Assembly: GCF_036053395.1 (NCBI RefSeq) | Contig: NZ_CP107942.1 | Location: forward strand, 6,714,501-6,778,500 | Source of the DNA: Actinoplanes sp. NBC_00393 | GTDB lineage: Bacteria; Actinomycetota; Actinomycetes; Mycobacteriales; Micromonosporaceae | Length of the DNA stretch: 64,000 nucleotides | Direction of reading: 5' to 3' | In this document: one piece after another, positions 2,577 to 45,137 of the stretch | How positions within the stretch are numbered: the first letter of the stretch is position 1 | Layout of the letters: each line of letters starts with the position of its first letter | Program-made: the position numbers and the translations under genes | The notes under the pieces: generated by a model | Told to the model about the DNA's origin: nothing | The model's input: the letters and a program-made list of their open reading frames with translations, nothing else | Databases searched by the model: none

Positions 2577-4442
2577 TCATACCCCACGCAGACTGCCCAA
2601 GGTGCGTCCGGTCGCCCGCTTGCAGAGGTACTCGGCGCGTTCGTAGGAGAGGCGCCGCCGCCCGGTTTCCGAGCAGAGATCAGCCGCTGCGGGCGGGCGG
2701 CCCGGACCGGGTCGCCGGTCGGAGAGGAACAGCGGGCCGCGGGTTCGGCCGCCGATCAGGTCCGGGAGCAACCGGGCCGTTCCGGAACGCCAGACGATCG
2801 TCGCGTTCCGGGCGCTGCGGTCGGCCAGGTCCAGATCCTCCACATTGAGCGACAGCACGGCCCCGACCTTCGCGGACGACTCGCGCAGCAGGCACCACAG
2901 CACCCGTTCCCGCAACGCACACCCCTCCTCCGACGCGGTAACGGCCGGACGAGGGGGCGCAGCGACGACCGGGCGCGGGCTGACCGCTGTGGCGAGGTCG
3001 GGGGTGTCGGCCCAGGTGGCGAAGGAGCGAAGAGCGGCCACGTGCCGGTTCCAGCTTCGCGGGGCCACGGACGGCCAGGTCGTCGCGAAGATCTCGGCGA
3101 CTCGGGCGGGAGTCAACTCGGCGAGCGGAAGGCTGACGCCTGCGGCGCGGGCTACCCGGTGCAGTGTCTGGCCGTAGGCGCGGGCGGTCGCCGGGCCGAG
3201 CGAGTCCAGGAAGTCGGCCACCGCCGGACCGAGGCGGGGGCGCTGGTCCTCCGGCACGTCCAGGGTCGCGGCGCGGCGCAGCAGGAAGGCGCGTTCGGCG
3301 GTGTTGCGGGCCAGGGACGCGCCGCGTTCCAGTTCCCGGCGCGCCTCGGCGGTCCGGCCGAGCCGCAGCAGGAGGTCGCCGCGGACGCTGGGCAGCAGGT
3401 GGTAGTCCGCCAGCTCCGGGGCGGTGTGCAGGTCGTCCAGCAGGTCCAGGCCGGCTTGCGGGCCCTGCGCGAAACCCACTGCGACGGCCCGGTTCAGCCG
3501 GACGACCGGGGTCGGGAGCAGTTGCTCCAGGGCCTGGTAGAGCGCTGAGATGCGTACCCAATCGGTGTCTTCGGCGGTGTGTGCCTGGGCGTGACAGACC
3601 GCGATGGCCGCCTGCAGCACATACGGCCCGGGCGGGCCGGCCGCCTCGCGGGCGCGCAGCATCGCGGCGAAGCCGCGGCGGATGAGCAACTGGTCCCAGC
3701 GGCCGCGGTTCTGCTCGTGCAGCGGGATGGGCTCGCCGCGCGGCCCGGTGCGCGCCGCCGACCGCGACTGCTGGATCTCCATGAGCGCCACGAGCCCGTG
3801 CACCTCTGCCTCGTCGGGGGCGAGCACGGCGAGCAGGCGGCCGAGCCGGAGCGCTTCCAGGCACAGGTCGGCGCGGATCAGGTCGGCGCCGGAGGTGGCC
3901 GAGTAGCCCTCGTTGAAGATCAGGTAGACCACTTCGAGCACGGACGCCAGCTGTCTGGACGGCTCGTAGGCGACCCCGGCGTCGGCGAGCGTGCGCTTGG
4001 CCGCAGCGATCCGCTGCGCGATCACCTGCTCGGAGACCAGGAAAGCCCGGGCGATCTCCGCCGGGCTCAGGCCGGCGATCACGCGCAGGGTGAGTGCCAC
4101 CCGGGCTTCCGTGGGGAGTACGGGGTGACAGGACGTGAACATCAACCGCAGAACGTCGTCCTGACTCGGCTCCGGCAGTTGAGCGAGCTCCGGAGCCAGC
4201 CGTTCCTGGGTGCGCGATCGCCGGATGTGGTCGACGGCCCGGCGCTTGGCGATGGTCATCAGCCAGGCGCCGGGATTGTCCGGCACCCCGCCGGCCGGCC
4301 ATTGCTCCAGCGCGGCGACCAGCGCGTCCTGTGCCAGCTCCTCGGCCAGGCCGACGTCGCGGACCAGGCGCAGGAGCCCGGCGACGATGCGCGCGGACTC
4401 CTGCCTCCAGACGGCGCCGACCGTGGCCGAGACGTCGGTCAC
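2577..4442 (-). CDS. ECF42-type sigma factor fused to a degenerate tyrosine-recombinase domain
   Basis: A 621-residue protein. Residues 10-80 are sigma region 2 (EELAQDALVAALEQW, AWLMTIAKRRAVDHIRR), 110-160 sigma region 4, and 165-395 the helical DUF6596/TPR-like extension typical of ECF42 sigma factors. The GTG start overlaps the stop of the upstream DGPF gene by 4 bases, and ECF42 sigma factors are known to be paired with DGPF proteins. Unusually, residues about 405-621 resemble a phage-type integrase: a core-binding part (FLDSLGPATARAYGQTL) followed by catalytic-domain sequence (LSLNVEDLDLADRSAR, GPLFLSDRRPGPG, RRLSYERAEYLCKRATG). The usual first catalytic arginine appears to be Lys525, and the protein stops just before the expected HxxR and tyrosine motifs, so recombinase activity is unlikely. 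The sigma role is well supported; the meaning of the tail is unknown. Confidence 0.88.
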   Translation of the reverse strand: MTDVSATVGAVWRQESARIVAGLLRLVRDVGLAEELAQDALVAALEQWPAGGVPDNPGAWLMTIAKRRAVDHIRRSRTQERLAPELAQLPEPSQDDVLRLMFTSCHPVLPTEARVALTLRVIAGLSPAEIARAFLVSEQVIAQRIAAAKRTLADAGVAYEPSRQLASVLEVVYLIFNEGYSATSGADLIRADLCLEALRLGRLLAVLAPDEAEVHGLVALMEIQQSRSAARTGPRGEPIPLHEQNRGRWDQLLIRRGFAAMLRAREAAGPPGPYVLQAAIAVCHAQAHTAEDTDWVRISALYQALEQLLPTPVVRLNRAVAVGFAQGPQAGLDLLDDLHTAPELADYHLLPSVRGDLLLRLGRTAEARRELERGASLARNTAERAFLLRRAATLDVPEDQRPRLGPAVADFLDSLGPATARAYGQTLHRVARAAGVSLPLAELTPARVAEIFATTWPSVAPRSWNRHVAALRSFATWADTPDLATAVSPRPVVAAPPRPAVTASEEGCALRERVLWCLLRESSAKVGAVLSLNVEDLDLADRSARNATIVWRSGTARLLPDLIGGRTRGPLFLSDRRPGPGRPPAAADLCSETGRRRLSYERAEYLCKRATGRTLGSLRGV

Positions 4443-4762
4443 GGACCGTAGACCTGGTGGATCACGCTCTCCCCGTCACCGACGATCTTGCGGAAGCGGC
4501 GGCAGAGCTCGAGCGCCTCCTCCTTGGTGCGCACCTCGACCAGGGCGAATCCGCCGATCGCCTCCTTGGCCTCGGTGAACGGCCCGTCGGTCACGGTGAT
4601 CTCGTCGCCGGCCGAGGTCATCTTGAAGCCGACCGGGTCCAGACCGCCGGTGGCGAGCAGGACGCCGGAGGCGGTCAGCTCCTCGACGAAAGCGGCCATG
4701 TCGGCGTAGAGCTGCGCGTCCGGCTCGGCGCCGCCGGCCTTCTGCATCATCAGGTAACGCAT
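4439..4762 (-). CDS. YCII-related DGPF-domain protein
   Basis: A 107-residue protein starting MRYLMMQK and carrying the signature TDGPFTEAKEAIGGFALVEV. This is the YCII-like DGPF family, a small ferredoxin-like fold that in actinobacteria and proteobacteria is regularly encoded beside ECF42 sigma factors; its molecular role is not settled. The gene is first in a two-gene operon, and its TGA overlaps the GTG of the sigma factor by 4 bases, which points to translational coupling. A GGAGAG ribosome site lies about 7 bases before the ATG. It is full length for the family with nothing missing. Confidence 0.9.
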   Translation of the reverse strand: MRYLMMQKAGGAEPDAQLYADMAAFVEELTASGVLLATGGLDPVGFKMTSAGDEITVTDGPFTEAKEAIGGFALVEVRTKEEALELCRRFRKIVGDGESVIHQVYGP

Positions 4763-4895
4763 CGTGTCTCTCCGTTCGTCGGGCTGCCTGGTCTTGTACT
4801 CCGGCGTCGAAAGACGCGATGTGACAGGTAATCAGAACATTATCTGTCGCATCGGCGGATCGACGTCTGGGCAACAACCAACGAAGGAGCCCGAG

Positions 4896-5579
4896 ATGAC
4901 CAGCATTGCTCTCGCCCGTGATGTCGCCGTCCCGTCCCGCCGCGCGGCGCTCGCCGTTGCCGGACCGCTCTGGGCAGCCGTGTCGCTCGCCCAGGTCGCC
5001 ACCCGCGACGGGTTCGACCTGATGCGGCACCCGCTCAGCCTGCTCAGCACCGGTTCGCTCGGCTGGCTGCAGATCGCCAACTTCGTGGTGGCCGGCGTGC
5101 TGATGGTGTTCGGCGCCGGCAGCCTGGAGGGTAGGTGGGCGCCGCGGCTGATCCGAGTGGCCGGGTTCGGCATGATCGCCGCCGGGCTGCTGGTGATGGA
5201 CCCGGGCGGCGGCTTCCCGGCCGGCCACCCCGAGGTGCCGACCACGATGAGCTGGCACGCGATCGGCCACATGGCCGCCGGCACGATCACCTTCACCGCG
5301 CTGATCGCCGCCTGCTACGTGCTGGCCCGGCGCTTCGCGGCGCGCGGTTCGTCGGCGCGAGGCAAGGCGGCGCGAGGCAAGGCGGCGCAGGGTGTGCAGG
5401 ACGCGGCGGCGACGCAGGGAGCGCGGGGTTGGGCGGCGGCCGCGGTGGTCGCCGGAACCGCACTGCTGGCCGGCGATCTGTGGGCGATGTCCGGCGGCAC
5501 GGCCGGCACGCTGACCCTGGCCGTCGGTGCGATCACCGCGATGTGCTTCCTGTCGCTCACCGCGATCCGGTCCCGCTGA
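4896..5579 (+). CDS. DUF998-family integral membrane protein
   Basis: A 227-residue membrane protein with about five to six hydrophobic segments. Seen: a first membrane span near residues 18-36, the family-like DGFDLMRHPLSLLSTGSLGWLQ loop, a span with VVAGVLMVFGAG, the conserved-looking DPGGGFPAGHP loop, and a C-terminal pair of spans. A basic Ala/Gly/Lys-rich stretch (SSARGKAARGKAAQG) with a short internal repeat separates the last spans. The start at 4896 follows a clear GAAGGAG ribosome site. The gene is divergent from the DGPF/sigma pair, so it may share their control region. The function of DUF998 proteins is unknown. Confidence 0.75.
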   Translation: MTSIALARDVAVPSRRAALAVAGPLWAAVSLAQVATRDGFDLMRHPLSLLSTGSLGWLQIANFVVAGVLMVFGAGSLEGRWAPRLIRVAGFGMIAAGLLVMDPGGGFPAGHPEVPTTMSWHAIGHMAAGTITFTALIAACYVLARRFAARGSSARGKAARGKAAQGVQDAAATQGARGWAAAAVVAGTALLAGDLWAMSGGTAGTLTLAVGAITAMCFLSLTAIRSR

Positions 5580-26496: not shown

Positions 26497-26571
26497 TGGT
26501 GGGCGATACTGGGATCGAACCAGTGACCTCTTCCGTGTCAAGGAAGCGCGCTCCCGCTGCGCCAATCGCCC
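26497..26571 (-). tRNA. tRNA-Val (GAC), cassette 1
   Basis: A 75-base cloverleaf with a 7-bp acceptor stem (GGGCGAT), anticodon loop TTGACAC giving GAC, T-loop GGTTCGATCCC, and an encoded CCA end. It is last in the minus-strand order Gly-Cys-Val and identical to the copy at 44863-44937. Confidence 0.95.
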
Positions 26572-26580
26572 TCGCTTGCG

Positions 26581-26651
26581 AGGTGGAGACGGGATTTGAA
26601 CCCGTGTACACGGCTTTGCAGGCCGTTGCCTCGCCTCTCGGCCACTCCACC
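26581..26651 (-). tRNA. tRNA-Cys (GCA), cassette 1
   Basis: A 71-base cloverleaf with acceptor stem GGTGGAG/CTCCACC, anticodon loop CTGCAAA giving GCA, and T-loop GGTTCAAATCC. No CCA is encoded. It is identical to the copy at 44965-45035. Confidence 0.95.
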
Positions 26652-26663
26652 GAGGCTTCTCCG

Positions 26664-26736
26664 AGCGGACGACGGGATTCGAACCCGCGACCCTCACCTT
26701 GGCAAGGTGATGCGCTACCAGCTGCGCTACGTCCGC
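26664..26736 (-). tRNA. tRNA-Gly (GCC), cassette 1
   Basis: A 73-base cloverleaf with acceptor stem GCGGACG/CGTCCGC, anticodon loop TTGCCAA giving GCC, and T-loop GGTTCGAATCC. No CCA is encoded. It is first in the cassette and identical to the copy at 45065-45137; a similar short leader (GGCGACGGA, GAAAC, TTAGCC) precedes both. Confidence 0.95.
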
Positions 26737-44862: not shown

Positions 44863-44937
44863 TGGTGGGCGATACTGGGATCGAACCAGTGACCTCTTCC
44901 GTGTCAAGGAAGCGCGCTCCCGCTGCGCCAATCGCCC
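44863..44937 (-). tRNA. tRNA-Val (GAC), cassette 2
   Basis: A 75-base cloverleaf with anticodon GAC and an encoded CCA end, identical in sequence to the copy at 26497-26571. Downstream on its strand there is only a weak hairpin (GCCCT...AGGGC) before the IS21 end, in place of the strong terminator that follows cassette 1. Confidence 0.95.
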
Positions 44938-44964
44938 TGGCTGCTTCAGGATATGAAGCACGCG

Positions 44965-45035
44965 AGGTGGAGACGGGATTTGAACCCGTGTACACGGCTT
45001 TGCAGGCCGTTGCCTCGCCTCTCGGCCACTCCACC
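44965..45035 (-). tRNA. tRNA-Cys (GCA), cassette 2
   Basis: A 71-base cloverleaf with anticodon GCA, identical to the copy at 26581-26651. The spacers on either side differ in sequence and length from those of cassette 1. Confidence 0.95.
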
Positions 45036-45064
45036 GAGGTGGCCCCGTGTGGCGGGCCGCTCCG

Positions 45065-45137
45065 AGCGGACGACGGGATTCGAACCCGCGACCCTCACCT
45101 TGGCAAGGTGATGCGCTACCAGCTGCGCTACGTCCGC
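45065..45137 (-). tRNA. tRNA-Gly (GCC), cassette 2
   Basis: A 73-base cloverleaf with anticodon GCC, identical to the copy at 26664-26736. It is first in the cassette. A short leader resembling that of cassette 1 (GGCGACGGA, GAAAC, TTAGCC) lies upstream. Confidence 0.95.

Follow-up and report, generated by a model that had tools for sequence, protein, structure and literature searches.

The window analysed here, a stretch of 64,000 nt from Actinoplanes sp. NBC_00393 (contig NZ_CP107942.1, positions 6,714,501 to 6,778,500 of the forward strand), harbours a gene for an ECF42-type sigma factor with a truncated tyrosine recombinase at its C-terminus. We suggest that the fused protein probably finds its promoter with these borrowed recombinase parts, and that the tail has most likely taken over the recognition of the -35 region. 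The suggestion is based on sequence comparison: a box resembling recombinase half-sites is present in the promoters of fused operons, mostly at the -35 position, and the sigma4 residues corresponding to known -35 contacts have become variable.

Recombinase ancestry of the sigma factor tail

The gene is a single uninterrupted frame of 621 codons with a GTG start. In line with the initial annotation, which was made from the sequence of the window and described an ECF42-type sigma factor with a DGPF partner, Pfam revealed Sigma70_r2 (residues 16-77), Sigma70_r4_2 (residues 101-152) and DUF6596 (PF20239, residues 165-264, E 1.4e-35), as well as weak TPR matches at residues 353-380, which are under their cut-offs. 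No sigma region 3 was among the Pfam matches at E≤1. The product of the gene directly upstream belongs to PF03795 (E 6.7e-13). The traits of ECF42 membership, namely sigma2 and sigma4 without sigma3, a DUF6596/TPR-rich extension and a DGPF/YCII neighbour gene, which is typical of the group, are all present. The source genome (11.4 Mb, one contig) contains 12 further strong ECF42-like matches, and only one of these 13 ECF42-like genes carries the tail.

Residues 396-621 were used as the tail query, and among the 7990 candidates scored, which were those sharing most words with it, 495 proteins were found at E≤1e-3; DUF6596 is present on nearly all of the best 120 of these 495 matches. A. missouriensis also has a fused relative (P0019). 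The search with the tail by itself yielded 761 proteins, and the 120 listed include short stand-alone tails and PF00589 tyrosine recombinases of approximately 300 residues. The tail is 44-53% identical to the stand-alone recombinases among these 120 matches listed (best E 2.4e-52), and this likeness is far beyond chance. Phage_int_SAM_1 matched the tail alone with E 1.4e-4, slightly above its curated cut-off and thus passing it, and fell slightly short of the cut-off in the whole protein (E 4.8e-4).

Structure models pointed in the same direction. The model of the full protein has a mean predicted local distance difference test score (pLDDT) of 87.9 and a predicted template modelling score (pTM) of 0.64, the domain placement being less sure than the residues. 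Compared with the PDB it gave no match at E≤0.001 but mostly TPR and sigma entries and a few recombinases, and therefore the tail was modelled by itself (mean pLDDT 91.3, pTM 0.59, again with the domain placement less sure). At E≤0.001 this model matched six PDB rows, all of them recombinases: the Brujita integrase, three XerA chains, the Tn1549 integrase and an archaeal Xer. Among the weaker matches were MrpR/YopR and SroF, repressors with a recombinase fold. The single domains superpose well (root mean square deviation 2.2 for 90 residues and 2.9 for 106), the tail as a whole poorly. A sequence search of the PDB with the tail returned only three RNA polymerase alpha matches with E of approximately 0.1. 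Thus, the integrase similarity, for which profile and structure searches had been proposed in the initial annotation, was detected by both.

According to the alignment, the tail comprises the core-binding domain and the catalytic domain as far as box II. The first catalytic arginine (Arg-I) is replaced by Lys525, exactly as annotated initially, the column of the hairpin lysine is empty, the box II histidine is replaced by Gly616, Arg619 is kept, and everything after box II is absent, including the H/W position and the tyrosine. The protein had been proposed to end before both the HxxR motif and the tyrosine; the tyrosine is indeed missing, but the end lies at box II (HxxR) and not before it. 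The catalytic set R, K, H, R, H/W and Y is therefore incomplete in the window tail, which has the fold of a non-catalytic tyrosine recombinase, with its core-binding and catalytic-domain parts. By eye, no separate downstream gene for the second catalytic half was seen in the window sequence and the protein ends, although no systematic search was made.

The same state is found in related loci. A genome scan confirmed 246 loci, of which the best 80 by similarity were kept, a set that is biased towards the type of the window because it was chosen by similarity. We compared 79 truncated fused tails (the window and 78 of the 80 loci) with 22 stand-alone relatives. In the truncated tails, Arg-I is an arginine only once; the hairpin lysine column is empty in 74 and holds a lysine in two; the box II histidine is kept in four, and the arginine position of this box holds arginine in 41 and lysine in 30. 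In 77 of the 79 no residue is aligned at the third-box H/W position, and in 78 none at the tyrosine position. In contrast, the stand-alone relatives have the arginine (21 of 22), lysine, histidine, second arginine, third-box histidine and tyrosine (22 of 22 each). As a side observation, a number of database entries of 210-260 residues named 'site-specific integrase' (P0122-P0160) match the sigma factor tail without PF00589, and some of them may be sigma tails annotated as separate genes.

Promoter box and sigma4 contacts

A repeated motif upstream of the DGPF gene was first noticed on reading the sequences of the fused loci. It lies outside of the sigma gene and was, like the divergent gene described below, not part of the initial annotation. 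For its analysis 79 fused promoters were used (the window and 78 loci; L019 and L066 were dropped, since no DGPF match was found there). L170 was left out of the analysis as a copy of L002. The box TTMCCTGTCRYAT is present within 250 bp with at most two mismatches in 78 of them, 57 times exactly, while it was not found in any of 20 tail-less ECF42 promoters, where the best candidate has three mismatches. Usually the box is doubled and forms a dyad with 13-bp arms and an 8-bp spacer. Both arms with at most two mismatches each exist in 70 of the 79 promoters, the spacer being 8 bp in 54, 9 bp in 11, 10 bp in three, 12 bp in one and 55 bp in one. Inverted repeats with at least 11 of 13 paired positions were detected in 66 of the 79 fused upstream regions and in 16 of 395 dinucleotide shuffles.

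When the distance to the -10 element was measured to CGAC, which replaced the pattern CG[AT][CT], the box ended 8 or 9 nt before it in 73 of 78 fused promoters. In addition, a mirror element GTCG is located 8 or 9 nt past the other arm in 58 of 69 dyads. With the CGAC spacing mirrored on both sides, the region looks like a two-way promoter. In the window, the divergent gene encodes a DUF998 protein (PF06197, E 2.6e-26), and 56 of the 78 fused loci examined showed such a divergent gene, so that the function of DUF998 may be tied to the fused sigma factor. The coupling to the dyad is only partial: 54 loci have both, 14 have the dyad without DUF998, eight have neither, and two (L045 and L068) have DUF998 without the dyad. 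The six loci with a single box (L014, L028, L037, L043, L062 and L067) lack DUF998.

A second copy of the window dyad was not found in the 11.4-Mb genome (at most three mismatches, same spacer). Dyads with the 8-bp spacer were found in 9 of 35 congeners, all nine among the 14 with the fused gene. A G-type dyad pattern occurred in only one of 197 genomes of the class (G237), which is also fused; this pattern is insensitive, since it misses the source genome with its GT-type arm and other fused genomes, and it therefore speaks for specificity only. Finally, a box-plus-CGAC pattern gave 18 matches in 13 of 18 genomes with the fused gene, each of them only at the fused operon, and none with the reversed control. 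Thus, in these 13 genomes the box predicts one target, the two-way promoter of the fused operon itself.

In sigma factors, recognition of the -35 element is generally ascribed to sigma4, and the -35 motif of ECF42 promoters is TGTCGA, which is a trait of the promoters and not a definition of the group. This hexamer is found 16-18 nt from CGA/TY in 11 of 20 tail-less promoters. It is absent from the window promoter, and at the same distance it is missing in 75 of 79 fused promoters. Early-branching fused loci carry the box upstream of the promoter, either singly or in tandem, whereas in the derived clade, which includes the window, it occupies the -35 region. Ten loci combine Arg or Lys at residue 147 with a box further upstream, and the exact TGTCGA-N16-18-CGA/TY is present in six of them (L045, L084, L150, L253, L257 and L263) and not in the other four. 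With an exact TGTCGA promoter downstream of it, the box is not the -35 element of these early-branching loci.

The shift of the box is paralleled by changes in sigma4. In our alignment, residues 147 and 140 correspond to R176 and T169 of sigma-E, although the matches to sigma-E are weak (E 0.05 to 0.29); in the available excerpt of PMC6713349, these two residues bond to G-35 and G-34. Tail-less ECF42 proteins have Arg147 in 33 of 33 and Thr140 in 32 of 33 cases, and Arg147 is also found in all 10 early fused proteins. In the 90 derived fused proteins, residue 147 is Ala (36), Gly (13), Thr (10), Asp (9), Glu (8) or another residue, and residue 140 is Val (31), Arg (21), Ala (11), Thr (7) or another. 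Out of 136 positions (20-155) these two show the largest gain in variability between derived fused and tail-less proteins. Left out of this comparison were 12 rows classed as non-fused that in fact come from fused loci, truncated at the locus boundary or with a broken frame, as well as the frame-broken L050 (with Arg147) and L211; L231 and L235 were counted as early-branching, in agreement with the quick tree described below, where the same genes are represented by L256 and L257. In terms of loci, Arg/Lys147 is absent from 73 and kept in 5 with the box at -35, and absent from 2 and kept in 10 with the box further upstream.

An alternative explanation is that the tail binds the box as a regulator of the operon, an autorepressor or activator, and that sigma4 still recognises the -35 region as usual, but with a changed specificity. 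Such a role would resemble that of MrpR of phage SPbeta, a tyrosine-recombinase fold turned repressor (according to the accessible part of PMC10516654), and would suit the early branch, where the box is apart from an intact promoter. However, it does not account for the loss of correctly spaced TGTCGA in nearly all fused promoters, nor for the contact residues, which turned variable instead of switching to one other residue. We regard it as unlikely, but as worth keeping in mind.

The origin of the box is indicated by the stand-alone recombinases of the family, which have dyads and extra half-sites just upstream, e.g. TTATGTGTCACAT, TTCTCTGTCACAT and TTATCTGTCACAC; the recombinase locus L222 has exactly TTCCCTGTCACAT at this place. 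A weight matrix made from 78 fused boxes was applied to the 250 bp upstream of 39 distinct stand-alone genes and to 389 control windows. It matched with p≤0.05 at 15 of the 39 genes, 12 of them scoring above all controls (Fisher 9e-18, a value that overstates independence, since the 39 recombinases are related to each other). In an earlier subset, from which 14 of the 39 had been excluded by a completeness pattern, 12 of 25 matched. Nine of the 15 matched genes show the box as a dyad with a spacer of 6 bp (seven genes) or 7 bp (two genes), in contrast to mostly 8 bp in fused loci. Because matching sites precede stand-alone recombinase genes, the box is best read as an inherited recombinase half-site.

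This bears on a further possibility, that the box is merely a new -35 element for sigma4 and the tail serves protein contacts unrelated to it. Sigma factors are generally known to change their -35 specificity, and the box is at the -35 position in most fused loci. But the occurrence of the box in front of stand-alone recombinase genes and outside of the promoter in early-branching fused loci is hard to reconcile with such an element, as are its length of 13 bp, its usually dyadic form and its absence from 20 of 20 tail-less ECF42 promoters tested. We consider this possibility improbable.

Several observations weigh against the proposed takeover of -35 recognition by the tail. In recombinases the DNA clamp is normally completed by the C-terminal half, which the truncated tail does not have. 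At residue 140, six of the 10 early fused proteins have Ala and four have Thr, so this position varied before the promoter shift. The link between residue 147 and the promoter has exceptions, the five loci with the box at -35 which keep Arg/Lys147 and the two with the box elsewhere which do not have it; one of the latter, L031, has CGTC directly after the box and may belong to the class with the box at -35. Moreover, in a quick tree built without the recognition helix, with promoter states assigned by hand from the box-position comparison, there is one change of the promoter state and there are three of residue 147. Since the promoter shift is one change, the loss of Arg147 and the shift are not linked through independent events, and the corresponding Fisher value of 3e-8 is overstated. 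The dyad is not obligatory, because six fused loci have a single half-site and the arms of the L023 dyad are separated by 55 bp. In one fused promoter, at L068, no box was seen, its start being probably misplaced. The inverted-repeat score was abandoned as a sole criterion, because 4 of 21 tail-less promoters also reach 11 of 13 paired positions with repeats of unrelated sequence. Finally, 24 of the 39 stand-alone recombinases have no significant match to the matrix; several of them carry another type of dyad, e.g. TTATCTGCGATAG.

Independently of the sigma factors, the stand-alone recombinase genes show dyads near their own start codon, several with a further half-site in the same orientation, and at least two sequence types exist (TTATCTGTCACAC and TTATCTGCGATAG; loci L181, L184, L186, L189-L191, L220, L222, L226, L236-L238 and L243-L245). 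Such recombinases may be self-regulating, or the dyad may be a recombination site.

Spread of the fusion, intermediates and proposed order of events

The tail is in frame with the ECF42 sigma sequence in all 80 loci, and 78 of them have the DGPF gene upstream. The loci belong to Streptosporangiaceae (24), Micromonosporaceae (18), Streptomycetaceae (18), Pseudonocardiaceae (12), Nocardiopsidaceae (4), Thermomonosporaceae (3) and Nocardiaceae (1). The label of the last one, L056 from Rhodococcus rhodnii, is doubtful, since its protein ends and promoter closely resemble those of the Kibdelosporangium aridum locus L020. In the tree of the sigma part, 45 fused and 32 tail-less rows are split by one branch (support 99/95, and 98% of 200 bootstrap trees, the bootstrap being not fully settled). 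The tail in frame in 80 of 80 loci and the single clade of fused sigma factors argue that the fusion is no accident; apparently the recombinase was captured at the sigma C-terminus once. A recent fusion product, as considered in the initial annotation, is not compatible with this distribution, and neither a fusion accident nor a sequencing error explains a window gene without stop or frame break and a conserved fusion. In contrast, the recombinase-type half-site in the promoter and the relaxed sigma4 contacts lend strong support to the idea that promoter recognition could be altered by the tail, and the conservation of the tail in other Micromonosporaceae sigma factors, which was to be checked, is evident from the 18 loci of this family, the congeners and the further families.

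The tail is under purifying selection. In 21 pairs among seven Actinoplanes/Paractinoplanes genes, the mean ratio of nonsynonymous to synonymous differences (pN/pS) was 0.21 in the sigma part, 0.20 in DUF6596, 0.44 in the core-binding domain, 0.70 in the linker and 0.30 in the catalytic half. This speaks, together with the single origin in the tree, the presence in several families, the near-constant end point and the conserved promoter box, against a decaying, functionless remnant of a fusion accident. Loss of catalytic residues and the fast-evolving linker would fit a remnant, as would the three damaged loci out of 80 (a frame break within the sigma part in L049 and L050, and only residues 289-391 in L066) and the fact that, by our own reading, just 14 of 35 congeners have the fused tail, two of them (G020 and G032) frame-broken. 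On balance we regard a remnant as extremely improbable.

Some fused loci seem to preserve earlier states. Complete-length recombinase tails exist on the sigma factors of L119, L120, L121 and L131, in which Arg-I is changed to Pro and the tyrosine to Phe or Leu. The fusion in L253 (positions 3042-5183 of that locus; PF00589, E 1.3e-12) keeps Arg-I, the histidine and arginine of box II, the third-box histidine and the tyrosine; a lysine is present in a shortened hairpin, although the alignment leaves the hairpin lysine column empty. This locus has tandem boxes and a canonical promoter. In the midpoint-rooted tail tree, three full-length fusions and the truncated L045 group with 26 stand-alone recombinases (support 93/97), apart from 41 truncated tails, and one stand-alone row, P0209, sits among the full-length fusions. 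A complete recombinase would thus have been fused first and have decayed afterwards.

The residues kept in L253, and the geometry of the dyad, which is that of a core site, could also mean that the fused protein still has a role in recombination and serves as an accessory subunit bringing a partner recombinase to the dyad. But a tail-family profile found in the source genome, besides the sigma gene, only two distant recombinase matches (E 7.7e-14 and 1.4e-5), the window dyad has no second copy there, and the spacers of fused loci vary from 8 to 12 bp. We give hardly any credit to this explanation.

Returning to promoter recognition by the tail, we infer the following order of events. An ECF42-type ancestor would have captured a tyrosine recombinase at its C-terminus, and the recombinase part would have lost catalysis and also, in most lineages seen, everything after box II, leaving a DNA-binding module made of the core-binding domain and the first half of the catalytic domain. 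The old half-site would have been kept alongside the protein as the box TTMCCTGTCRYAT in the DGPF-sigma promoter, often doubled head to head and then facing also the divergent gene, usually DUF998. In the early branch it would have joined a normal ECF42 promoter as an additional site upstream; in the derived branch with the window it would have moved to the -35 position, and since it replaced the -35 element there, the sigma4 residues reading this element would be free to drift. We consider it quite probable that the tail binds the box and holds the RNA polymerase holoenzyme there, that sigma2 reads the CGAC of the -10 region, and that the box replaced the -35 element in the derived branch; this binding would then drive transcription. 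With somewhat more reserve we favour the historical scenario as a whole, in which a sigma factor handed -35 recognition to a captured recombinase, the half-site being first added upstream and then replacing the hexamer, with decay of the sigma4 contacts. The TPR part or the DGPF protein may regulate the system, as proposed for other ECF42 members.

Table 1. Features of the fused sigma factor locus, in positions of the window.
Feature	Position	Strand	Basis
ECF42-type sigma factor gene with recombinase-derived tail, 621 aa	2577..4442	-	
sigma2 and sigma4 region, residues 1-155	3978..4442	-	Pfam
DUF6596/TPR-like extension typical of ECF42, residues 156-395	3258..3977	-	Pfam
Tail, tyrosine-recombinase core-binding (SAM-like) domain, residues 404-482	2997..3233	-	Pfam, structure model
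Tail, first half of recombinase catalytic domain to box II, residues 509-621	2580..2918	-	Alignment, model
Lys525 codon at catalytic Arg-I position	2868..2870	-	Alignment
Ala147 codon, equivalent of sigma-E Arg176	4002..4004	-	Alignment
Val140 codon, equivalent of sigma-E Thr169	4023..4025	-	Alignment
DGPF/YCII-family gene directly upstream, 4-base overlap with sigma start	4439..4762	-	
Dyad, 13-bp arms, 8-bp spacer	4819..4852	.	
Box TTACCTGTCACAT facing the DGPF-sigma operon	4819..4831	-	
Box TTATCTGTCGCAT facing the divergent DUF998 gene	4840..4852	+	
CGAC, predicted -10 of the DGPF-sigma operon, 9 nt from box	4806..4809	-	
CGAC, predicted -10 of the DUF998 gene, 8 nt from box	4861..4864	+	Read from sequence; spacing as in mirrored elements
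Divergent DUF998 gene, second predicted target	4896..5579	+	

Two other features of the window were observed. A 63-bp unit repeated in tandem (10.3 copies, 98% matches) is located just 3' of the sigma stop codon at positions 1704-2355, and a Val-Cys-Gly tRNA cluster is present twice (26497-26736 and 44863-45137), in the same order and on the same strand, 18 kb apart.

Relation to known systems

The fused protein, conserved across many actinobacterial families, belongs within ECF42 as a variant; its mechanism of promoter reading would be new, if confirmed. With Sven_0747, Sven_7131 and Sven_4377 of Streptomyces venezuelae, as far as described in the accessible part of PMC8999054, it shares sigma2, sigma4 and the TPR-rich C-terminal extension of approximately 200 residues, and in the tree the fused sigma factors nest beside tail-less ECF42. 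In contrast to other ECF42 members, it has approximately 226 extra residues of tyrosine-recombinase origin, a recombinase-type half-site instead of the TGTCGA -35 element, and relaxed -35 contacts in sigma4. According to the accessible parts of PMC8999054 and PMC9023288, ECF42 sigma factors require the TPR extension for activity and are presumably controlled through protein contact; the word 'integrase' does not occur in these parts of either source, nor 'recombinase' in that of PMC8999054. ECF41 and ECF56 with their SnoaL-like extensions are likewise sigma factors with fused C-terminal domains. The SnoaL-like domain is described as regulatory in ECF41 (PMC9023288) and present in ECF56 (PMC7730460), and DNA reading is not ascribed to it in the accessible parts of these papers.

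The tail shares the tyrosine-recombinase fold with MrpR/YopR of SPbeta and SroF of phi3T, which are free-standing and of complete length, whereas the window domain is approximately half a recombinase and fused to a sigma factor. In the accessible part of PMC10516654, MrpR is a demonstrated case of this fold turned into a DNA-binding repressor. For the tail, the conserved box lends indirect support to a comparable sequence-specific DNA binding that may control transcription. The stand-alone actinobacterial recombinases (PF00589; P0186, P0222 and relatives) differ from the fused proteins by having the catalytic set and no sigma domain. In the open literature we found no report of a sigma-recombinase fusion, but the primary ECF42 papers were not covered and an earlier mention is possible. 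To our knowledge, recombinase-based promoter reading has not been described for any known sigma factor.

In summary, the comparative data point to a sigma factor in which the -35 region is read by half of a domesticated recombinase, and this protein seems to have been co-opted jointly with its former DNA site. Intermediates, such as a near-intact recombinase on a sigma factor and a box above an intact promoter, are alive in Streptosporangiaceae and related genomes, so that the proposed steps could be tested in order.

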